In this document: in pieces, positions 4,384-36,915 of the stretch
How positions within the stretch are numbered: the stretch's first letter is position 1
Layout: every line of letters begins with the position of its first letter
Source: an uncultured Faecalicatena sp.
GTDB lineage: Bacteria; Bacillota; Clostridia; Lachnospirales; Lachnospiraceae
Assembly (NCBI GenBank): GCA_948468385.1
Contig: CAOKHZ010000038.1
Span: 1-36,915 of the forward strand
Direction: 5' to 3'
Length of the DNA stretch: 36,915 bases
Program-made: the position numbers and the translations under genes
The notes under the pieces: model-generated
Told to the model about the DNA's origin: nothing
The model's database searches: none
Seen by the model: only the letters and a program-made list of their open reading frames with translations

Positions 4384-7107
4384 ATGTTAAAAGTTGGCAA
4401 TCTTAGAACGGAGTATTTAAACAACCCGTTGGGTATCGATCCGAAGAATCCTCGCCTATCCTGGATTTTAAAATCCGATCGTAAGAACGTAAGACAAGAG
4501 ACCTATCATATAGTCGCGGCTCTTGATGAGCATTTTGAAGAACTGGTCTGGGACAGTGGCGTTGTTGCGTCGGAGGATAGTGTACGCGTAAAATATGCGG
4601 GCGAAAAATTGGTTTCCGGACAGAGGGTTTTCTGGAAGGTTACCGTGACGGACGGGGAGGAAGAGGCCGTCAGCGAGACGGCTTGGTTTGAAATGGGACT
4701 TCTGAATCCAGAAGACTGGATCGCGCGGTGGATTGAGCCAGACCAGACGGATGTCAACATTGAAAGTTATAAGCCGGTTTATTTTATGCGCCGTTTATTC
4801 CGCATAGAAAAAGAAATCCGCCGGGCAAGAATTTATCAGACGGCGCACGGCGTTTACGACTTCGCAATCAATGGGCAGGTTGGCACGGAAGATAAATTTA
4901 ATCCGGGCTTTACAAGCTATTATACCCGCCTGCAGTATCAAGCCTATGATATTACAAGGCTTTTGAAGCGGGGTGAGAACGAATGGTCCGTAAAGCTAGG
5001 CGACGGTTGGTGGAGGGGCTTCACGGGTGGCATGTACCGCAACAACTTCGGCTACTACGCGCAGTTCATCGGCCAGATTATGATTGAGTATGTTGATGGA
5101 ACCGGCGAGACCATTGGGACTGATGAGAAGTTCGAGACCGCGAACGGTCCGATTTCCATGAATGACATGAAATATGGCGAATGCTATGATGCAAGGATTG
5201 AACCGGAGGACTGGAAACCGGCGATACTCTCCCAGGGAGACTTTTTGGAGAAGGAGGTTTTCATTGCTTCTAGAAGTGTTCCATGCCGCGAGATGGAAGT
5301 TTTGAAACCTAAGATGTTTCATGACAAGGAAGGAAGTCTGGTCATGGATTTTGGCCAGAACATTGCCGGCCATGTAAAAATGAAACTGCGCAATACCAGG
5401 CCCGGGCAGGTAATCAGCCTGATTCACAGCGAGGAAATGGTGGATGGCGTGTTCAGTCTTGGAAACATCTGTACCGGCCTGTCTGACGAAACGCATTACC
5501 AGCAGGTTGACTACATCGCGAAGGGCGCACAGTTGGAGGTTTACCAGCCATCTTTTTCCATTTTTGGTTTCCAATATGTGAAGGTCGAGGGATACGATGG
5601 ACCAATCCTTGAGGATGATTTCCAGGCCGTTGCCGTATATTCCGCAATGGAAGAGACCGGGGATTTTACTTGTTCCAATCAACTGATTAATAAGCTGGTG
5701 CAGAACAGCCGTTGGAGTCAGAAGGGAAACTTCCTGGACGTTCCTACGGATTGTCCCACCCGTGAAAGGAGTCCGTGGACCGGGGACAGCCAGGTTTATG
5801 CAAAGACAGCGTCCCGTTTCATGAACGTCTATCCGTTTTTTGAGAAATGGTTGCTGGATTTGAATGCGGAGCAGTTCCCGGACGGGATGGTTGGAAACTC
5901 CGTTCCCGCTACTACCGGACTTCATTTTGGAACCGAGGTTCATCGTCTGATTGATGAGGACAAGTGCGGGTTTATCGTTCCCGGTATCTTTGGATACAAG
6001 GGGGAGTGGGTGAAGGGGGCTTTTGACGGTTCGGCCGGATGGGGGGATACCGCGACGATTACCCCGTTTACCATGTATCTTTGCTATGGGGATCCACAGA
6101 TTTTGGAAAATCAGTACCAGAGCGCGAAGAAGTGGACTGATTATATGATAGCAAGCGCGAAGGAAGAAAATGAGAATCGTCTGGACGAGCCGGAATATAA
6201 TACCTGGGTAAACGGCGTGCGCGACGCGGACTACCTCTTTGACACCAAGTTCCATTTTGGAGAGTGGCTGGAGCCTGGCTCCGAAGAGTCAGGGAATCCC
6301 ACGGAGCAGGATTTGGAAGCGCAGAAGAAGCGTACAGACTCACTGGTCGCAACCGTATATATGTATAATTCCTGCAACCTGGTGAGCCGGATGGCCGCCA
6401 TCATGGGAAATAAGGAAGACGAAGGATTTTATCGTGATTATGCAAAAGAAATCAAGCGCGTTTACAACAAGTACCTGATACAGGAGGACGGAACCATTCA
6501 GGCGGGGCACCAGGCATCTTATGTCCGTTGCCTCCAGTTTGGAATCTGCTCAAAGGAGAATGAGAAGTTGGCTGCTGAAAAGTTGGTCGAGTCCGTGCGC
6601 GAGAATGGAATGAAACTGAATACCGGTTTCCTTTCGACTCCGTTTCTCTTGTTCCAGTTGTTGAAGCATGGCTACAAGGAGGAGGCCTTTGCGGTACTAG
6701 AGCAGACCGAGGCACCGGGATGGCTTCACCCGGTACTTATGGGGGCGACCACGATTCTTGAGGACTGGACCGGATATGAGAACCATATCAACTCCTTCAA
6801 CCACTACAGTTATGGTGCCGTTTGCGACTTCCTCTTTGGCGTAATCTGTGGCATCGAGCCAATGCTTGAGAAGCCGGGCTACAAGGAGTTTACGCTCAAG
6901 CCGGTAATCGGCGGCCACCTGACCCATGCGGAAGCGTCCTACGAGAGTCCGTACGGAACCATTCGTTCTGCATGGGAGAAGAAGGACGGGAAGATAAGCT
7001 TCACCTTTGAAATTCCCGTTAACACGACCGCCCATATTACGCTTCCCGATGGATACCAGGAAACCGTGGGCAGTGGAACCTATACATATATAGGTGATGA
7101 AGAATAA
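4384..7107 (+). CDS. Alpha-L-rhamnosidase, glycoside hydrolase family 78
   Basis: The 907-residue protein has the GH78 layout. An N-terminal beta domain begins LRTEYLNNPLGIDPKNPRLSW and includes GHGVYDF-type and DGWWRG segments. A middle region (MDFGQNIAGHVKMKL) is followed by the (alpha/alpha)6 catalytic barrel, with DVPTDCPTRERSPWTGDSQVYA holding the family acidic residues. WGDTATITPF, FGEWLEPG and the GATTILEDWTGYENHINSFNHYSYGAVCDFLF block are all conserved. The enzyme inverts configuration and releases L-rhamnose from plant glycosides or polysaccharides. No signal peptide is seen, so it probably acts in the cytoplasm on sugars brought in by the upstream symporter. The ATG at 4384 fits AAGGAGT 7-8 bases upstream better than the GTG at 4375. 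Confidence 0.95.
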   Translation: MLKVGNLRTEYLNNPLGIDPKNPRLSWILKSDRKNVRQETYHIVAALDEHFEELVWDSGVVASEDSVRVKYAGEKLVSGQRVFWKVTVTDGEEEAVSETAWFEMGLLNPEDWIARWIEPDQTDVNIESYKPVYFMRRLFRIEKEIRRARIYQTAHGVYDFAINGQVGTEDKFNPGFTSYYTRLQYQAYDITRLLKRGENEWSVKLGDGWWRGFTGGMYRNNFGYYAQFIGQIMIEYVDGTGETIGTDEKFETANGPISMNDMKYGECYDARIEPEDWKPAILSQGDFLEKEVFIASRSVPCREMEVLKPKMFHDKEGSLVMDFGQNIAGHVKMKLRNTRPGQVISLIHSEEMVDGVFSLGNICTGLSDETHYQQVDYIAKGAQLEVYQPSFSIFGFQYVKVEGYDGPILEDDFQAVAVYSAMEETGDFTCSNQLINKLVQNSRWSQKGNFLDVPTDCPTRERSPWTGDSQVYAKTASRFMNVYPFFEKWLLDLNAEQFPDGMVGNSVPATTGLHFGTEVHRLIDEDKCGFIVPGIFGYKGEWVKGAFDGSAGWGDTATITPFTMYLCYGDPQILENQYQSAKKWTDYMIASAKEENENRLDEPEYNTWVNGVRDADYLFDTKFHFGEWLEPGSEESGNPTEQDLEAQKKRTDSLVATVYMYNSCNLVSRMAAIMGNKEDEGFYRDYAKEIKRVYNKYLIQEDGTIQAGHQASYVRCLQFGICSKENEKLAAEKLVESVRENGMKLNTGFLSTPFLLFQLLKHGYKEEAFAVLEQTEAPGWLHPVLMGATTILEDWTGYENHINSFNHYSYGAVCDFLFGVICGIEPMLEKPGYKEFTLKPVIGGHLTHAEASYESPYGTIRSAWEKKDGKISFTFEIPVNTTAHITLPDGYQETVGSGTYTYIGDEE

Positions 7108-7110
7108 AGA

Positions 7111-7162
7111 TAACGCCGCTGTACGGATGGCAGATGTGTTGCCATCCGTATAGCGGTGTTAA
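7111..7162. terminator. Strong hairpin between convergent GH78 and AraC genes
   Basis: TAACGCCGCTGTACGGATGGCA pairs over about 22 bp, with two mismatches, with the arm ending in GCGGTGTTA near 7162. There is little T tract on the plus strand and only T-rich sequence on the minus strand. It probably serves both converging transcripts. Confidence 0.75.
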
Positions 7163-7226
7163 ATGGTTTCAGACATATGCTCCGTATCTGTCCTTATCTG
7201 TATCGTTTTGGTATTGACTATGGATG

Positions 7227-8282
7227 TCACTTCTGATATTTTTTTCGATAATCTTTTGGCGACATCTGGTAAATCTTTAAGAACTTCCGATTAAAGTGGC
7301 TGGCATCATAGCAACCGACCTCGATACCGATGTCCGTAATCTTCATGTCGCTGTTGGTGAGAAGTTCTGCGGCCTTTTTCATGCGAAGTTCATTTACAAA
7401 TGCGGTAAAAGTCTTTCCGATATATTTTTTGATCAATTGGCTTAAGTAGGACTTGTTGTATCCGAAAAAATCGGCCACTAAGTCCAGGGTGACATGGGCG
7501 GCGTTTACCGTTATGTAGGCAATCAAGGCGACGATATGCGGATCTTGTTCATGTTTTTTTGGATTGAAAACGATGGCGGACAGCTCGTAATTTCTAAGAA
7601 TATGGATAAAAAGCTGCTTCACCAGGTGGACGACGGACTCTCGGTAGAGATAATCCTTTTCCTTTCGCTCTTCCAGCATATGGTAGATTATTTCATGCAT
7701 CCAGTGATCATTTCCGGTTGGATAGAGGATGTAGGGACTGGAAGATTTTCCATATAAAATATTTTCAAGAAACTGAGAAAGGGTAGGGACTCTTTTCATA
7801 AGTTTCATAAAGGAATCGTCAAAGAGCCGTTGGCTTATCATGATATTGATTAGAATGGCATCATCCGCGCAGGCAGATAACGCATGTTTCGTATTGGGGG
7901 CGAGGATACAGAAGTCCCCCTCTTTCATTTCAAATTGCTGGTTCTCCAGAAAATGGATGCAGGTGCCACCGTAGACATAGACCAGTTCTATATATTCATG
8001 GTTGTGCATGATTGGGTAGCTGTAGCGGGAGTGCAAGACGATTTCCACATAGTCGTCGGGGTCGTTGAATATATTGTAAGCGGTGCTCTCGTTCATTTTT
8101 CCCATGACGTTCCGATGGTGGATCTCCATAATCCTATAATGCTCTTTTTTCTCGTCATCCAGGGTTTCATATTCACTATAGTACATGGGTCTGCTTAGAT
8201 AATCTTGTCCTCCGTTTTCATAATCCCGTTTAAAGGCCAGTTCCTCGACCCTTAATTCAAAAATTCGATTATTCATATACAT
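7227..8282 (-). CDS. AraC-family transcriptional regulator with N-terminal cupin
   Basis: The 351-residue protein has an N-terminal sugar-sensing cupin-like region (PIMHNHEYIELVYVYGG, then FEMKEGDFCILAPNTKHALS). Its C-terminal AraC/XylS double helix-turn-helix runs over about the last 100 residues: FGYNKSYLSQLIKKYIGKTF, then ITDIGIEVGCYDASHFNRKF and the signature end MSPKDYRKKY. The ATG at 8280-8282 has AGGAAGAAGG 6-9 bases upstream on the minus strand; an ATG six bases further in is possible. It converges on the symporter-rhamnosidase pair and is the obvious candidate activator of that operon, probably responding to rhamnose or a rhamnoside. The target and ligand are inference. Confidence 0.92.
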   Translation of the reverse strand: MYMNNRIFELRVEELAFKRDYENGGQDYLSRPMYYSEYETLDDEKKEHYRIMEIHHRNVMGKMNESTAYNIFNDPDDYVEIVLHSRYSYPIMHNHEYIELVYVYGGTCIHFLENQQFEMKEGDFCILAPNTKHALSACADDAILINIMISQRLFDDSFMKLMKRVPTLSQFLENILYGKSSSPYILYPTGNDHWMHEIIYHMLEERKEKDYLYRESVVHLVKQLFIHILRNYELSAIVFNPKKHEQDPHIVALIAYITVNAAHVTLDLVADFFGYNKSYLSQLIKKYIGKTFTAFVNELRMKKAAELLTNSDMKITDIGIEVGCYDASHFNRKFLKIYQMSPKDYRKKYQK

Positions 8283-32966: not shown

Positions 32967-33569
32967 ATGAGAAACAAGGTTTACGGATACATTCGCGTAT
33001 CGACCAAGGAGCAAAACGAGGCCAGGCAAAAAATTGCCCTGCAAAATTTTGAAATTTCGGAGGAGCACATTTTCATGGATAAGCAGAGCGGGAAGGACTT
33101 CGAACGGAAATCGTATAAAAAAATGTTGAGGAAAATAAAAAAGGGTGACCTTCTCGTGGTGCAGTCCATCGACCGATTGGGGCGCAATTACGAGGAAATT
33201 TTGGAACAATGGCGCATGCTTACACGTAAAAAGCAGGTGGACATCGTTGTGTTGGACATGCCGCTTTTGGATACGAGGAACAAAGATAAGGATTTGACCG
33301 GGACGTTCATTGCGGATCTGGTATTGCAAATCTTGTCCTATGTGGCGCAAAACGAACGTGAAAATATTCGAAAGCGGCAGGCGGAGGGAATCGCGGCGGC
33401 CAGGAAACGGGGCGTGCACTTCGGAAATCCGGGCAAGCCGCTGCCGGACACGTTTGAGGACGTGGTGGGAAAATGGCGGCGAAAGGAGATTGGACTGGAC
33501 GAGGCACTGGCGGAACTGGGAATCGGGCGTACGTACTTTTTTAAATACGTAAAGCAACTGGGACTTTGA
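32967..33569 (+). CDS. Serine recombinase, DNA-invertase type (Hin/Pin/Gin-like)
   Basis: The 200-residue length is that of small DNA invertases and resolvases. The catalytic domain (1-140) has the nucleophile Ser12 in YGYIRVSTKEQN, the conserved SIDRLGRNYEEI motif and MPLLDTR. The long E-helix region reads SYVAQNERENIRKRQAEGIAAARKRGVHFG. A short C-terminal helix-turn-helix (about 160-198, EIGLDEALAELGIGRTYFFKYVKQLG) binds DNA. GGAGG lies about 10 bases before the ATG. Directly downstream are perfect 18-bp inverted repeats bounding an AT-rich segment with a promoter, which argues for an invertase acting next door. Family membership is sure; inversion activity is inference. Confidence 0.93.
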   Translation: MRNKVYGYIRVSTKEQNEARQKIALQNFEISEEHIFMDKQSGKDFERKSYKKMLRKIKKGDLLVVQSIDRLGRNYEEILEQWRMLTRKKQVDIVVLDMPLLDTRNKDKDLTGTFIADLVLQILSYVAQNERENIRKRQAEGIAAARKRGVHFGNPGKPLPDTFEDVVGKWRRKEIGLDEALAELGIGRTYFFKYVKQLGL

Positions 33570-33585
33570 CAATGTACTTTGCGAG
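33562..33585 (+). repeat. Possible third recombinase site
   Basis: ACAAT-GT-ACTTT (33569-33580), flanked by G, matches 10 of 12 bases of the AAAGT-GT-ACTTT core in the right inverted repeat, in the same orientation as that repeat. It overlaps the recombinase stop codon. Confidence 0.4.
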
Positions 33586-33617
33586 ATAAGAGTGCGGAAA
33601 ATTTGCCGAGGTTCATA

Positions 33618-33797
33618 AAAGTACACTTTGGCGAACTGATACCACATATAGTAAAAACATCTACGATTTATGCATGTTTTTATATAGTATATTCCTTTTC
33701 TTTAACACTGTCAATTTATTTCAGGTCTATATTTGCAAGAAATTTGCTATTAAGAAACTATATATGTATTTTTTCAATATTCGCCAAAGTGTACTTT
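33618..33797. other. Putative invertible DNA segment with 18-bp inverted repeats
   Basis: AAAGTACACTTTGGCGAA (33618-33635) is repeated as an exact reverse complement at 33780-33797. Within each repeat AAAGT and ACTTT arms flank a central dinucleotide (AC left, GT right). That is the layout of a serine-invertase crossover site whose asymmetric core gives direction. The 144 bp between are very AT-rich and contain a strong promoter. The neighbour gene encodes a Hin-type recombinase. Confidence 0.82.
33686..33714 (-). promoter_or_regulatory. Strong sigma-A promoter inside the invertible segment, now pointing left
   Basis: On the minus strand TTGACA (33714-33709), a 17-bp spacer and TATACT (33691-33686) form a near-consensus promoter. 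As assembled it reads toward the recombinase 3' end, antisense. Inversion about the repeats would place the -35 at 33701-33706 and the -10 at 33724-33729 on the plus strand, reading toward the riboswitches and the surface gene. Confidence 0.85.
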
Positions 33798-34157
33798 GAC
33801 GGACTCGTAAGAGTCCGCTGGTGCGAGGCACATTTGATGTGGTATGCCTGGATGGGCGTACCTTGACGAACTGGTTCCTGCGGGTAACGAGCCGTGGCCC
33901 CGTAAGGGGCGTTAACGTACATCGCGGGACACATACCCTGCTATTGTAGGCGGGAGGACGAACAACTTTGCGGATTGCCGTAAAGCTGTTGGCTTGTGCG
34001 TGGTAAAACCTGGCGTTGCCAGGAACGGGCAAGCGGGCATGACGAATACGGATACTGGCACGGAAAGTGCCGGTCACCTGATACTCGCCGTGCTGAGAAA
34101 CGTCGGAGCCGACGGGGCGTGTCAGACATAGTGGTGAAGGAGCGCGAAGAGGTTGGT
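33798..34157 (+). ncRNA. Large structured RNA, HEARO/omega-RNA-like, without IscB gene
   Basis: No frame is convincing, but the 360 bp are dense in short stems with small loops: GGACTC-GTAA-GAGTCC (33801-33816), GCCCC-GTAA-GGGGC, CCTGGC-GTT-GCCAGG and TGGCAC-GGAAA-GTGCCG. The start (CTCGTAAGAGTCC then GCTGGTGCGAGGC, TGTGGTATGCC) and the end (GTGGTGAAGGAGCGCGAAGAGG) resemble, from memory, HEARO RNAs, the guide RNAs of IscB nucleases. No IscB gene follows. In those RNAs the guide is the sequence just 5' of the scaffold, which here is the right inverted repeat. A different leader RNA family is the main alternative. Confidence 0.6.
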
Positions 34158-34283
34158 TATACTGGGCAGCAGATTTGACCGCCACCCAGCATAATATGAT
34201 GCGCACAGCCGCATTAGGAAATATGCCGCTTTGCGGCTGCGGCTGGCGCAATACTCACGACAGATAAAATCTGTCGTGAGTAT
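34158..34283 (+). ncRNA. Structured element, copy B (homologous to 31156-31276)
   Basis: The 5' hairpin is TATACTGGG (34158-34166) / CCCAG (34185-34189). AGCCGCA pairs with TGCGGCT around GCCGC-TTT-GCGG. A perfect 15-bp hairpin, stem ATACTCACGACAGAT with loop AAA, ends the element (34251-34283). GCCGCTTTGCGG and TGGCGCAATA are 19 bases apart in both copies. It directly follows the HEARO-like RNA. Confidence 0.55.
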
Positions 34284-34310
34284 AGTATGCGCGGGAAGGA
34301 GGGGGCGGCA

Positions 34311-34330
34311 GATGTGTCGTCAGACACATC
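34311..34330. other. Perfect hairpin in the surface-gene leader
   Basis: GATGTGTC-GTCA-GACACATC. No T tract follows. It lies between element B and the first riboswitch; no other feature or promoter is seen from 34284 to 34411. Confidence 0.6.
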
Positions 34331-34411
34331 GACCCATTGTCAAGATCCGTCAATGTCAGCGGGGATGGCAACGTAAACGAATGGTTCGTATGCGAATAAC
34401 GTGCGAACTCA

Positions 34412-34498
34412 TTTTGGCAAACTATCGGAAACGGTAGGACGCAAAGCCATAGGGACTAAGGTGTCGCTATATTCGACACTATGTCAGCCTGGTTGCTA
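34412..34498 (+). promoter_or_regulatory. Cyclic-di-GMP class I riboswitch aptamer, copy 1 (GEMM-I)
   Basis: The order of conserved parts is diagnostic: GGCAAAC, a P2 hairpin CTATCG-GAAA-CGGTAG with GNRA loop, then AGGACGCAAAGCCA, GGGACTAAGG, a short P3 hairpin (GTGTCG...CGACAC) and ATGTCAGCCTGGTTGC closing P1. The G before CAAA and the C of GGTTGC, the positions I recall as contacting the ligand, are kept. Confidence 0.93.
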
Positions 34499-34504
34499 AT
34501 TTAA

Positions 34505-34643
34505 TTAGCAAACCGCCGGAAACGGCGGGACGCAAAGCCATGGGGACTACGGTCCGCTTGTCATGGGAGAACCGTGGCAAGCGAGCGTGAAACGTTTTGC
34601 AAGCAAGGCGTTGGCGCGGAGACTATGTCAGCCCGGTTGCTAA
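34505..34643 (+). promoter_or_regulatory. Cyclic-di-GMP class I riboswitch aptamer, copy 2, extended P3
   Basis: TTAGCAAACC, hairpin CCGCCG-GAAA-CGGCGG, GACGCAAAGCCATGGGGACTACGG, then ATGTCAGCCCGGTTGCTAA. The third arm between CTACGG and ATGTCAGCC is about 70 nt longer than in copy 1 and contains its own pairing. Confidence 0.92.
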
Positions 34644-34647
34644 TTTA

Positions 34648-34724
34648 ATTAGCAAACCGTTGGAAACGGCGGGACGCAAAGCTAAGGGGGCTAAGGTGCT
34701 ACGGTACTATGCCAGCCCGGCCGC
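34648..34724 (+). promoter_or_regulatory. Cyclic-di-GMP class I riboswitch aptamer, copy 3, altered P1
   Basis: ATTAGCAAACC, hairpin CCGTTG-GAAA-CGGCGG, GACGCAAAGCTAAGGGGGCTAAGG and ATGCCAGCCCGG are present. The 3' strand of P1 (GGTTGCTAA in copies 1 and 2) is replaced by GGCCGCCGG and cannot pair in the same way. Copy 3 may therefore be weakened, or P1 may be part of the switching region next to the ribosome site. Confidence 0.88.
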
Positions 34725-34726
34725 CG

Positions 34727-34757
34727 GACACTTTGCATCCGTGTGGGAGGTGTCATG
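34727..34757 (+). promoter_or_regulatory. Ribosome site with possible sequestering hairpin
   Basis: GGGAGG (34745-34750) lies 7 bases before ATG 34758. GACAC (34727-34731), right after aptamer 3, can pair with GTGTC (34750-34754), and GCATC with GATGC is an alternative. No T-tract terminator is seen between aptamer 3 and the gene, which points to translational control. Confidence 0.5.
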
Positions 34758-36915
34758 ATGCTTCGTGGCACGTCCATGAGCAAAGAAAGGGTTAGAGGTA
34801 ATAACATGAGCAAGAAGAAAATTTTAAAGAGTATTGCCGCAGCGGGACTCGCTTTCGGTGGTGCAAGTGTCATGCAGGACGCAGACATCGTATATGCGGC
34901 TGAACTTGAAACCACGGAAATGCTTGGCAATGAAGAGGAATTAGTCGTTGATCTTGAATTGCCGAGTGATTCACCCGCTGAAAGCGAAAACCTTATGGGA
35001 ACGACTGAAATCGCTGAGGAGGAAACACCAGGCGAAGAAGTGGTCGTGCCTCAAGGGGAAGAGACAGCAGGTACTGAAACATCCGAAAACTTGAGTACAA
35101 GTGAGAGCCTTAGTATAAGCGAAAGCCTTAGTATAAGCGAGAGTTTGAGCACAAGCGAAAGCCTTAGTATAAGCGAAAGCCTGAGCACAAGCGAAAGCCT
35201 TAGTATAAGCGAAAGCCTGAGTACGAGTGAAAGCATTAGTTCAAGTGTTGCTGACAGCTTGAAGGCCGAGGAACAATCTGAGACATCTGAAGAGCAGAAG
35301 CCGAATGACGGTTCAGAGACGACAAATGTTGATGATGAAAAAGGTGCTGAAGAGGTGGATGAAGCATCTGTAAGCGAATCATTTAGTGCTTCGAATAGTG
35401 AAACGGCTAGCGTGTCAAGCAGTAATTCACTTGACACGTCAAGTAGCGAATCTGAGAGTACCAGCACTTCGGTTAGTGTATCGGAGTCGGAATCTTTAAG
35501 TACATCGGAAAGCGATATCGTTGAAGACACGGCAGCTAGCGAGTCTATTACAATGTTTGTGAATCGTAGTGCTGCAATGCTGATGGCCAATGTGGATACA
35601 ACCAATGCGACAGATGAGGAGAAAGCAGAATTTGATAGGTTGCTTCAGGAGTATAAGGATAACCTTACTGCATTGGAAGAGGCTAAGGCCAGTGGAGCTA
35701 GCGATGTGACAGCGCAAGAGAAAGCTGTCGCGGAGAGCATTATTAGGTATCAGGTGGCTGGCAAAGGTACGGGCGTGACGGTGGAATGGCTTGGGAATGG
35801 CGATTACAGTGTCACTTATACGGATGCTTCTGGAAAAGAGGTGACGGAGTATTATCAGTATCGTACCGAGGACGGCAATGTACATGTATATGAGGCGAAT
35901 GCAAGTTATGTGACGAAAGACGAAGAAGGTAATATCACATCTTCGCTGAGCTATAAGATTTGGACAGATGAAAGTGGACAGCAATGGATTAAGGTAAATG
36001 AAGATGAACCGAGACTTATCCTGCGCACGGTGTATAATGACGAAACGAAGATGTATTCGTATATTGTTTCTGAAACAAAGGCAGAAGGAAGTGCTTTTGT
36101 TTCAGAAAGAGAACTGTATATCATAAGTGAAGATAAGTCTACGGTGCGCCATGTGACAGAGTCGTTCAAAAGTCCAGATACACTATTAGATAATGCTAAT
36201 GTGGAGACAGAGACGGCAACGGATAGCGTAAACGGGCAGGAGTACGCCGTTGCCGGGGGAAACGCCAATGGAAGATTTGTTGTCGTTCAGGATGAAAACG
36301 GTAACTGGCACAAGCTCATTATGGATAATGTGCCTAACAGTTTGTTTTTGCTCAACAAAGGAAATGTTCAGCTTGTAATCTACGATGGAGAGTTTTATGT
36401 TTTTAGAAATGGAAAAGAGGGAGATTGGAGAAAACTGGGGAGTGATTATGTTCTAAAAACAGATGCAAATGGTAAATTTGGTCTGTATAAGAATGGTAGC
36501 AGCACGCCAGAGTACACATTCACAATCAGTTCCAGTGCGATATATAAACCTATAGGAGAGCAAACATCTTCTTCGAACGAGACCACTTATGGCTGGGATG
36601 TAACAGCAACAAGTACCGAAGCAAATAGGGCAAGCATGTCGGATGCTTCGATGAGTGACGCAAGTCTGAGTGATGCCTCAATGAGCGATGCTTCAATGAG
36701 CGACGCGAGCCTGAGCGATGCAAGCATGAGTGACACCTCGATGAGTGACGCAAGCATGTCGGACGCTTCTATGAGCGACGCAAGCCTGAGCGATGCTTCG
36801 ATGAGTGACGCGAGCCTGAGCGATGCATCCATGAGCGACGCGAGTATGAGTGATGCTTCGATGAGCGACGCGAGCATGTCGGACGCTTCTATGAGCGATG
36901 CAAGTATGAGTGACG
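34758..36915 (+). CDS. Secreted serine-rich repeat surface protein, putative adhesin (3' end outside window)
   Basis: The frame is open to the window end (719 codons). ATG 34758 has GGGAGG 7 bases upstream; in-frame ATG 34806 has AGAGGT 8 bases upstream and gives a cleaner signal peptide, MSKKKILKSIAAAGLAFGG...ADIVYA. Counting from 34806, residues 32-95 are acidic. Residues 96-146 are hexapeptide repeats SESLS[IT]. Residues 150-255 are Ser/Glu-rich. About 265-605 is a mixed region with Trp, Tyr and charged residues that looks globular (WLGNGDYSVTYTDASGK, FVVVQDENGNWHKL). From 610 onward the unit S[ML]SDA repeats to the end. This stalk-plus-domain layout is typical of cell-surface adhesins. 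Wall anchor and true length cannot be seen. Base composition is more AT-rich than the core genes. Confidence 0.85.
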   Translation, partial: MLRGTSMSKERVRGNNMSKKKILKSIAAAGLAFGGASVMQDADIVYAAELETTEMLGNEEELVVDLELPSDSPAESENLMGTTEIAEEETPGEEVVVPQGEETAGTETSENLSTSESLSISESLSISESLSTSESLSISESLSTSESLSISESLSTSESISSSVADSLKAEEQSETSEEQKPNDGSETTNVDDEKGAEEVDEASVSESFSASNSETASVSSSNSLDTSSSESESTSTSVSVSESESLSTSESDIVEDTAASESITMFVNRSAAMLMANVDTTNATDEEKAEFDRLLQEYKDNLTALEEAKASGASDVTAQEKAVAESIIRYQVAGKGTGVTVEWLGNGDYSVTYTDASGKEVTEYYQYRTEDGNVHVYEANASYVTKDEEGNITSSLSYKIWTDESGQQWIKVNEDEPRLILRTVYNDETKMYSYIVSETKAEGSAFVSERELYIISEDKSTVRHVTESFKSPDTLLDNANVETETATDSVNGQEYAVAGGNANGRFVVVQDENGNWHKLIMDNVPNSLFLLNKGNVQLVIYDGEFYVFRNGKEGDWRKLGSDYVLKTDANGKFGLYKNGSSTPEYTFTISSSAIYKPIGEQTSSSNETTYGWDVTATSTEANRASMSDASMSDASLSDASMSDASMSDASLSDASMSDTSMSDASMSDASMSDASLSDASMSDASLSDASMSDASMSDASMSDASMSDASMSDASMSD
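35091..35246 (+). repeat. 18-bp coding repeat (SESLS[IT] hexapeptide)
   Basis: About eight units of AGYGARAGYYTKAGYAYA code for SESLSI or SESLST. Such arrays easily gain or lose units. Confidence 0.9.
36633..36915 (+). repeat. 15-bp coding repeat (S[ML]SDA pentapeptide), continues past window
   Basis: About 19 units of the type AGCATGAGTGACGCA run to the last base. Synonymous serine codons (AGC, AGT, TCG, TCT, TCA) vary between units, more than expected for a very recent expansion. The array may be collapsed or incomplete in assembly. Confidence 0.92.

Follow-up and report, generated by a model that had tools for sequence, protein, structure and literature searches.

The DNA analyzed here, called the window, comprises the 36,915 nucleotides (nt) of contig CAOKHZ010000038.1 (GCA_948468385.1) from an uncultured Faecalicatena sp. 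of the family Lachnospiraceae. Near its right-hand end a serine recombinase gene is followed by a short segment bounded by inverted repeats, a leader, three riboswitch aptamers and the gene for a serine-rich repeat protein (SRRP). In this locus a phase-variable promoter, placed in series with a tandem cyclic-dinucleotide riboswitch, probably controls a serine-rich repeat adhesin. The adjacent recombinase would recombine two sites of 18 base pairs (bp) and so flip the 180-bp segment between them. In the assembled orientation the promoter within the segment would fire toward the 3' end of the recombinase gene, away from the adhesin (OFF); in the inverse orientation it would drive transcription of a leader of about 1 kilobase (kb) (ON). 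On the way to translation of the adhesin, the ON transcript would have three abutting aptamers to clear, which would confine the riboswitch to those transcripts that the DNA switch allows. Evidence comes from the parts themselves, from the opposite orientation in a related species (locus L009 and genome G304, taken as one record) and from a similar architecture in a second genus. The DNA switch consists of the following elements.

32967 to 33569, + strand: small serine recombinase (resolvase/invertase) of 200 amino acids, assigned from Pfam, PDB relatives and the L009 copy
33618 to 33797, no strand assigned: invertible segment with the promoter facing away (OFF), the inverse being held by L009
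33618 to 33635, + strand: left inverted repeat and putative recombination site, seen as a dyad in the sequence, with a presumed central dinucleotide AC at 33623-33624
33780 to 33797, - strand: right inverted repeat and putative recombination site, seen as a dyad and from similar arms in relatives, with a presumed central dinucleotide GT at 33791-33792
33686 to 33714, - strand: sigma-A-like promoter TTGACA-17-TATACT, a consensus match (11/12) inside the segment

The segment is bounded by AAAGTACACTTTGGCGAA, a perfect 18-bp inverted repeat (repeat score 18 within 450 bases), and its near-consensus promoter faces the 3' end of the recombinase gene and away from the SRRP. This is as described in the initial annotation, which also gave the directions of the recombinase, promoter, aptamers and SRRP correctly. 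The dyad CGCCAAAGT-GT-ACTTTGACG points to crossover at a non-palindromic central dinucleotide, which would be AC in the left repeat and GT in the right one. Opposed central dinucleotides of this type are the arrangement that gives inversion by serine recombinases. A single + strand promoter of at least 9/12 was identified in 33500-34830, and it lies in the hairpin of an inserted repeat described below; apart from this match no separate promoter, such as the initial annotation had considered, was found there. The segment promoter is presumably the main one, and its flipping is presumably carried out by the recombinase and continues today.

The opposite orientation was found in L009, where the recombinase (92% identical) is followed by the same leader and aptamers and the flanks are in the same order. 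Upon reverse complementation the L009 segment aligned with that of the window at a score of 205 (122/149 columns identical), as against 78 in the same orientation, which is at chance level (500 shuffles, 72.3±7.0, maximum 98.5). The L009 promoter, at 5734-5762 on the + strand, points into the leader and SRRP, bearing out the earlier proposal that inversion turns the promoter onto the leader; no + strand promoter was found outside the segment in L009 5600-6700. As in an inverton, repeats flank a promoter and both orientations occur, here between two species. Because the L009 segment matches only as the reverse complement with flanks in unchanged order, the alignment indicates that the segment was inverted after the window species and the L009 species parted, with L009 in the ON and the window in the OFF state.

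Of the 397 family genomes sampled, at least 135 have aptamers of the cyclic di-GMP (c-di-GMP) class I family (c-di-GMP-I), in a survey with stricter filters and 10 candidates scored per genome. Besides the window, three abutting aptamers were present only in genome G262 (locus L176) among the matches listed. The block after its last aptamer, CCGCCGGACACTTTGCATCCGTGTG...GCAAAGAAAGG, is the same as in the window, and its SRRP gene is complete and followed by those for SecY2 and Asp1. Upstream of the aptamers is a 29-bp inverted repeat (score 23, compared with a maximum of 12 in 100 shuffles), which encloses a 10/12 promoter facing away. In a further genome of this genus, G414, the locus is 93% identical to that of G262. 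Since the inverted repeats of this second genus differ from those of the window, the pairing of promoter and triple aptamer appears either to have arisen twice or to have survived a change of module. The G262 segment (L176 286-470) has relatives of about 70-76% identity elsewhere in the genomes of the genus (G262 and G407-G416; loci L192-L209), with 10 matches in G412. These many relatives suggest numerous such segments under one shared recombinase acting in trans.

Based on its sequence, the window enzyme is safely a small serine recombinase. The Pfam Resolvase domain was matched over residues 5-150 (E 1.1e-31, 110 bits), and no NCBIfam cut-off was reached. Sin (Tn552 bin3) was the best solved relative in the PDB (E 2.5e-27, 99 bits), ahead of the gamma-delta and Tn3 resolvases; other DNA-invertase chains, 4m6f and 3uj3, gave 57-58 bits only. 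A Hin-type invertase proper was rejected, the protein being closer to the Sin resolvase group than to Hin/Gin. The initial annotation was thus right as to the family, and its term "Hin-type" is a loose label.

Eighty related recombinase loci were compared, six of which had too little downstream sequence and were left out. An inverted repeat scoring at least 13 was identified downstream in 24/74 testable loci, a count that takes in L046, although the long, GC-rich repeat there may be of another nature; among dinucleotide-preserving shuffles of the related stretches, 1/222 reached this score. Arms similar to the window repeats lie downstream of the recombinases of L009, L010, L012 and L015. In the last three they precede other genes, and the same holds, with weaker repeats, for L011 and L013. 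The best segment promoter faces the recombinase in all five of these loci (L010-L013 and L015), where it could be antisense to the recombinase 3' end and possibly provide feedback on flipping. In L011, L012 and L013 (about 5600-8030) the related recombinase and similar segment precede a protein of about 700 amino acids, the N-terminus of which we take to be like a nucleotide-sugar epimerase. No c-di-GMP riboswitch at the gathering score was found in 11 further near relatives, nor in 29 more of the 80 loci, the other 39 being outside the scan. Relatives of the recombinase were found near 0/30 other c-di-GMP-I loci (flanks up to 1.5 kb).

The recurrence of a related recombinase and similar segment before other genes (L010, L011-L013, L015) would fit a mobile recombinase module which stands beside the SRRP by chance, and whose inversion serves the recombinase itself through antisense of its own 3' end. 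So would the promoter direction in the 13 loci, window and L009 included, whose repeat scores 13 or more and whose best promoter, 10/12 or better, is one-sided: it points at the recombinase in 9/13 and away in 4/13. In both species that carry the module, however, the right repeat leads straight into the leader, and the other genus has, in the corresponding place, a promoter with different inverted repeats, which makes this explanation quite improbable.

The riboswitch portion of the locus is made up of three aptamers, two linkers and a candidate expression platform.

34406 to 34500, + strand: aptamer 1, c-di-GMP-I family, with G at the G20-equivalent (34416); 72.3 bits, E 1.8e-12, by cmscan
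34493 to 34511, + strand: hairpin linker between aptamers 1 and 2, TTGCTAATTTAATTAGCAA
34500 to 34644, + strand: aptamer 2, c-di-GMP-I family, with a long extra arm and A at the G20-equivalent (34507); 54.7 bits
34637 to 34655, + strand: hairpin linker between aptamers 2 and 3, the same 19 letters as the first
34641 to 34728, + strand: aptamer 3, c-di-GMP-I family, with A at the G20-equivalent (34651); 71.6 bits, by cmscan
34731 to 34740, + strand: CTTTGCATCC, the candidate expression platform, with complementarity to GGACGCAAAG of the aptamer core (34672-34681), based on conservation and folding

All three aptamers, which abut one another, exceed the RF01051 cut-off of 35 bits. Aptamer 2, missing from the cmscan list, was scored in the genome search, in which these three were the only c-di-GMP-I aptamers found (150 of 434 first-look candidates scored). 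The identical 19-nt linkers could couple neighboring aptamers. In the Rfam alignment of the aptamers the G20-equivalent corresponds to model position 11, which we take to be G20 in the numbering of Vc2. GEMM-Ib, the 3',3'-cyclic GMP-AMP (3',3'-cGAMP) riboswitch, has A at this position and a preference for cGAMP. In the passage available from one study, position 11 of Cd1 is equated with Vc2 G20 and treated as a selectivity factor and not a hard filter (PMC9262584); the corresponding passage of a simulation study has the G20A form of class I binding cGAMP (PMC6274999).

The order G-A-A at the G20-equivalent of aptamers 1-2-3 was found in all four arrays (window, L009, G262 and G414). The single aptamer of G300 has A, and L188 and G299 have G; in 30 other family loci the position was readable in 25, with A in 2/25. 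The initial identification of three c-di-GMP class I aptamers was upheld for family membership, with the reservation of an A at this position in two of them. With G in the first aptamer and A in the other two, the array may be a mixed or graded cyclic-dinucleotide sensor. Aptamer 1 presumably binds c-di-GMP, and aptamers 2 and 3 would bind c-di-GMP and/or 3',3'-cGAMP. Five GGDEF matches over the cut-off were identified in the genome, one with an internal stop. Two GGDEF domains have intact canonical motifs, with Asp and not Ser at the Hypr position (defined after the passage available from PMC6456294), and on the strength of these motifs c-di-GMP is likely made by the organism. Neither of the two GGDEF domains whose motifs were readable is a Hypr cGAMP synthase, and the search took in no other kind of cGAMP synthase.

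The element CTTTGCATCC is located directly 3' of aptamer 3 and is identical in five loci (window, L009, G262, G300 and G414). Its pairing with the core was predicted in the free state for three of the four loci folded (0.93, 0.85 and 1.0; G300, 0.08). When the core was blocked, it was predicted to pair with a downstream GCAAAG in the window (0.89) and L009 (0.93); this was not clear in G262 (0.07) or G300 (0.44). Blocking the core took the predicted accessibility of the Shine-Dalgarno sequence from 0.65 to 0.61 in the window, 0.87 to 0.87 in L009, 0.85 to 0.67 in G262 and 0.84 to 0.80 in G300, and that of the upstream Shine-Dalgarno sequence of the window went from 0.36 to 0.18 with aptamer 3 forced. 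The modeled shifts lean toward repression and are too small for it to be claimed.

The presumed target of this control is located immediately downstream.

34806 to 36914, + strand: secreted serine-rich repeat protein, running off the contig, with the start set by homology

Further in-frame ATG codons were noted at 34755, 34758 and 34779. Serine-rich repeats and an SRRP-like signal region were found, as expected from the initial annotation; five further SRRPs at accessory-Sec loci have a similar signal region (a sixth row, L180, did not align because it was given too early a start). In G304 an SRRP of 2118 amino acids is followed by SecY2, Asp1, SecA2, a sugar transferase, GtfA and GtfB. Asp1 (G304 and G262), SecA2, GtfA and GtfB (G304) scored above their own cut-offs; SecY2 of G304 and G262 was below the curated cut-off, with accessory models still its best matches. 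From the Sec genes seen in relatives, the window SRRP is likely exported by the accessory Sec system, and it is presumably an adhesin.

Asp1 was identified in 12/397 family genomes. Among the 11 Asp1 loci besides G262, one (L188) carries a c-di-GMP-I aptamer, a lower bound in that several stretches reach the contig end before the SRRP start. In L188 (12894-13108) the single aptamer immediately precedes the SRRP; Asp1 lies downstream, and no inverted repeat there exceeded the shuffles. Here an accessory-Sec SRRP would be controlled by a riboswitch with no invertible promoter involved. At five other accessory-Sec loci no inverted repeat above shuffles was found (the open reading frame upstream in L189 is not serine-rich).

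Several observations weigh against a phase-variable promoter in series with a riboswitch. The one inversion seen, which separates two species, may have happened long ago and since become fixed. The G262 and G414 loci share one orientation, with no inversion of their own seen; no relative of the recombinase was found in about 6.5 kb upstream in G414, and the G262 contig begins at that place. The recombinase and SRRP genes face the same direction, and the stretch from the recombinase to the leader or SRRP yielded no + strand intrinsic terminator, so that readthrough could give SRRP expression in the OFF state. As regards the sensor, aptamers 2 and 3 lack the G at the G20-equivalent, so "three c-di-GMP aptamers" may be too simple, and the predicted platform changes Shine-Dalgarno accessibility little and does not predict the sign of regulation. 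As regards export, the genome to which the window belongs gave no Asp1 match, and the SRRP is cut off by the contig end.

The shared orientation in G262 and G414 and the possible readthrough are also what would be expected if the segment inverted on an evolutionary time scale only, or were fixed, with the SRRP driven in the main by an unseen promoter or by readthrough from that of the recombinase, and the riboswitch alone regulating. A precedent in part is cmrRST of Clostridioides difficile, where a second promoter with its own riboswitch works whatever the switch orientation, according to the passage available (PMC8844915). This alternative is unlikely. A near-consensus promoter has been kept in both orientations between species, inverted repeats accompany 24/74 testable relatives of the recombinase, and a repeat-flanked promoter precedes the same riboswitch in another genus.

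The leader between the right repeat and the aptamers was determined to be a composite, consisting in part of dispersed repeats.

33789 to 33872, + strand: dispersed REP-like repeat with three hairpins, starting at the right recombination site, recognized from other genome copies
33866 to 34150, + strand: leader core, single copy, of uncertain structure, otherwise found only in the L009 species
34151 to 34289, no strand assigned: second dispersed repeat with a 15-bp perfect hairpin and many genome copies, mostly missing in L009

The REP-like repeat is about 75 nt long, overlaps the right recombination site of the window with its 5' end and has copies in L089-L097, many with GTATAC ends and in tandem in places. 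Since most of the second repeat is absent from the orthologous place in L009, it is probably a recent insertion in the window lineage. The core has 88% identity with that of the L009 species over 285 nt and was found in 2/12 genus genomes and 0/298 other sampled family genomes. A search for a phage or plasmid source gave 23 phage records with short matches, the eight listed covering 26-30 bases, and no plasmid matches.

The initial annotation had given a structured leader of about 1 kb with a HEARO-like RNA in it. The length was correct, and the evidence for structure in the unique core is weak. Folding z-scores were -5.3 for the 615-nt leader of the window and -1.7 for the 495-nt leader of L009, and for the core alone -2.5 and -1.0, respectively. 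Covariation in the core amounted to two compensatory and nine one-sided changes with none broken in 86 pairs; as evidence for structure it was discarded, 124/500 shuffles having done equally well. That the core holds HEARO/omega or another known large RNA, to which the aptamers were added later, is extremely improbable. In its favor are the impression given in the initial annotation and the long GC-rich leader, which folds better than shuffles over 615 nt; this signal drops in the core and in L009. Searches with the HEARO model (RF02033) were negative both for 33500-34830 (E<=5) and for the genome (E<=10), and the HEARO claim was dropped; c-di-GMP-I was the only Rfam family found in 33500-34830, plus one microRNA match at E 2.9. 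The core may be a mere spacer, a protein-binding leader or a young RNA.

The joining of an invertible element with a c-di-GMP riboswitch is already known from flgB and cmrRST of C. difficile (PMC5386303, PMC8844915). The initial annotation knew of no described case of the combination together with a HEARO-like RNA. In the passages available, the riboswitch lies upstream of the switch in both systems (PMC8844915). Like the window, cmrRST (cmr switch/Cdi6 and Cdi-2-2) has a promoter in one orientation of an invertible element and a c-di-GMP riboswitch; unlike the window, this riboswitch is of class II, precedes the switch, has a promoter to itself and acts whatever the orientation (PMC8844915). 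Its target, as described there, is a regulator and not an adhesin, whereas the window has three class-I-type aptamers downstream of the promoter, in series. The flgB region (Cd1 and the flagellar switch) shares with the window a class I riboswitch and an invertible element in one 5' region, and differs, in the passage available, in having a constant promoter and a single aptamer first, a promoterless invertible segment later and flagella as its target (PMC5386303).

Three tandem c-di-GMP-I aptamers also precede cspABCDE of Bacillus thuringiensis (PMC4759541). They are described as three complete riboswitches, in a passage which does not mention an invertible promoter; the window array, unlike that one as there described, is abutting, with shared hairpin linkers, no + strand intrinsic terminator and a differing G20 position. 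Invertons of gut Clostridia likewise include repeat-flanked segments tied to invertases and surface functions, as far as the passage available goes (PMC11892184), and the words riboswitch, c-di-GMP and serine-rich are absent from the text of that article. The target resembles the accessory Sec/SRRP operons, reportedly of the GspB, Fap1 and PsrP type, of which SRRP, SecY2, Asp1, SecA2, GtfA and GtfB were matched in G304. Unlike these, the window SRRP would stand under an invertible promoter and a cyclic-dinucleotide riboswitch. In the open-access literature searched, no joint report of accessory Sec, serine-rich repeat, c-di-GMP and riboswitch was found, and no precedent for the switch-then-riboswitch order, the mixed array or the SRRP/accessory-Sec target.

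A bolder reading, tentative and on the whole doubtful, is that two-layer control extends across gut Lachnospiraceae genera. A DNA flip would first decide whether a glycoprotein adhesin is transcribed along with an export system dedicated to it. A mixed array of three aptamers in the RNA, one of the G20 type and two of the A20 type, would then integrate c-di-GMP and 3',3'-cGAMP, or read c-di-GMP over a wide range by unequal affinities, with linker hairpins coupling the aptamers and one shared anti-core platform.

In flgB and cmrRST the riboswitch precedes the switch; in the window the order is reversed, so that the switch would gate the sensor, with a Lachnospiraceae SRRP as the target. That this arrangement recurs in two genera, each with its own inverted repeats, suggests that the pairing as such has been selected for, and the conserved G-A-A pattern offers a directly testable case of a mixed cyclic-dinucleotide array.

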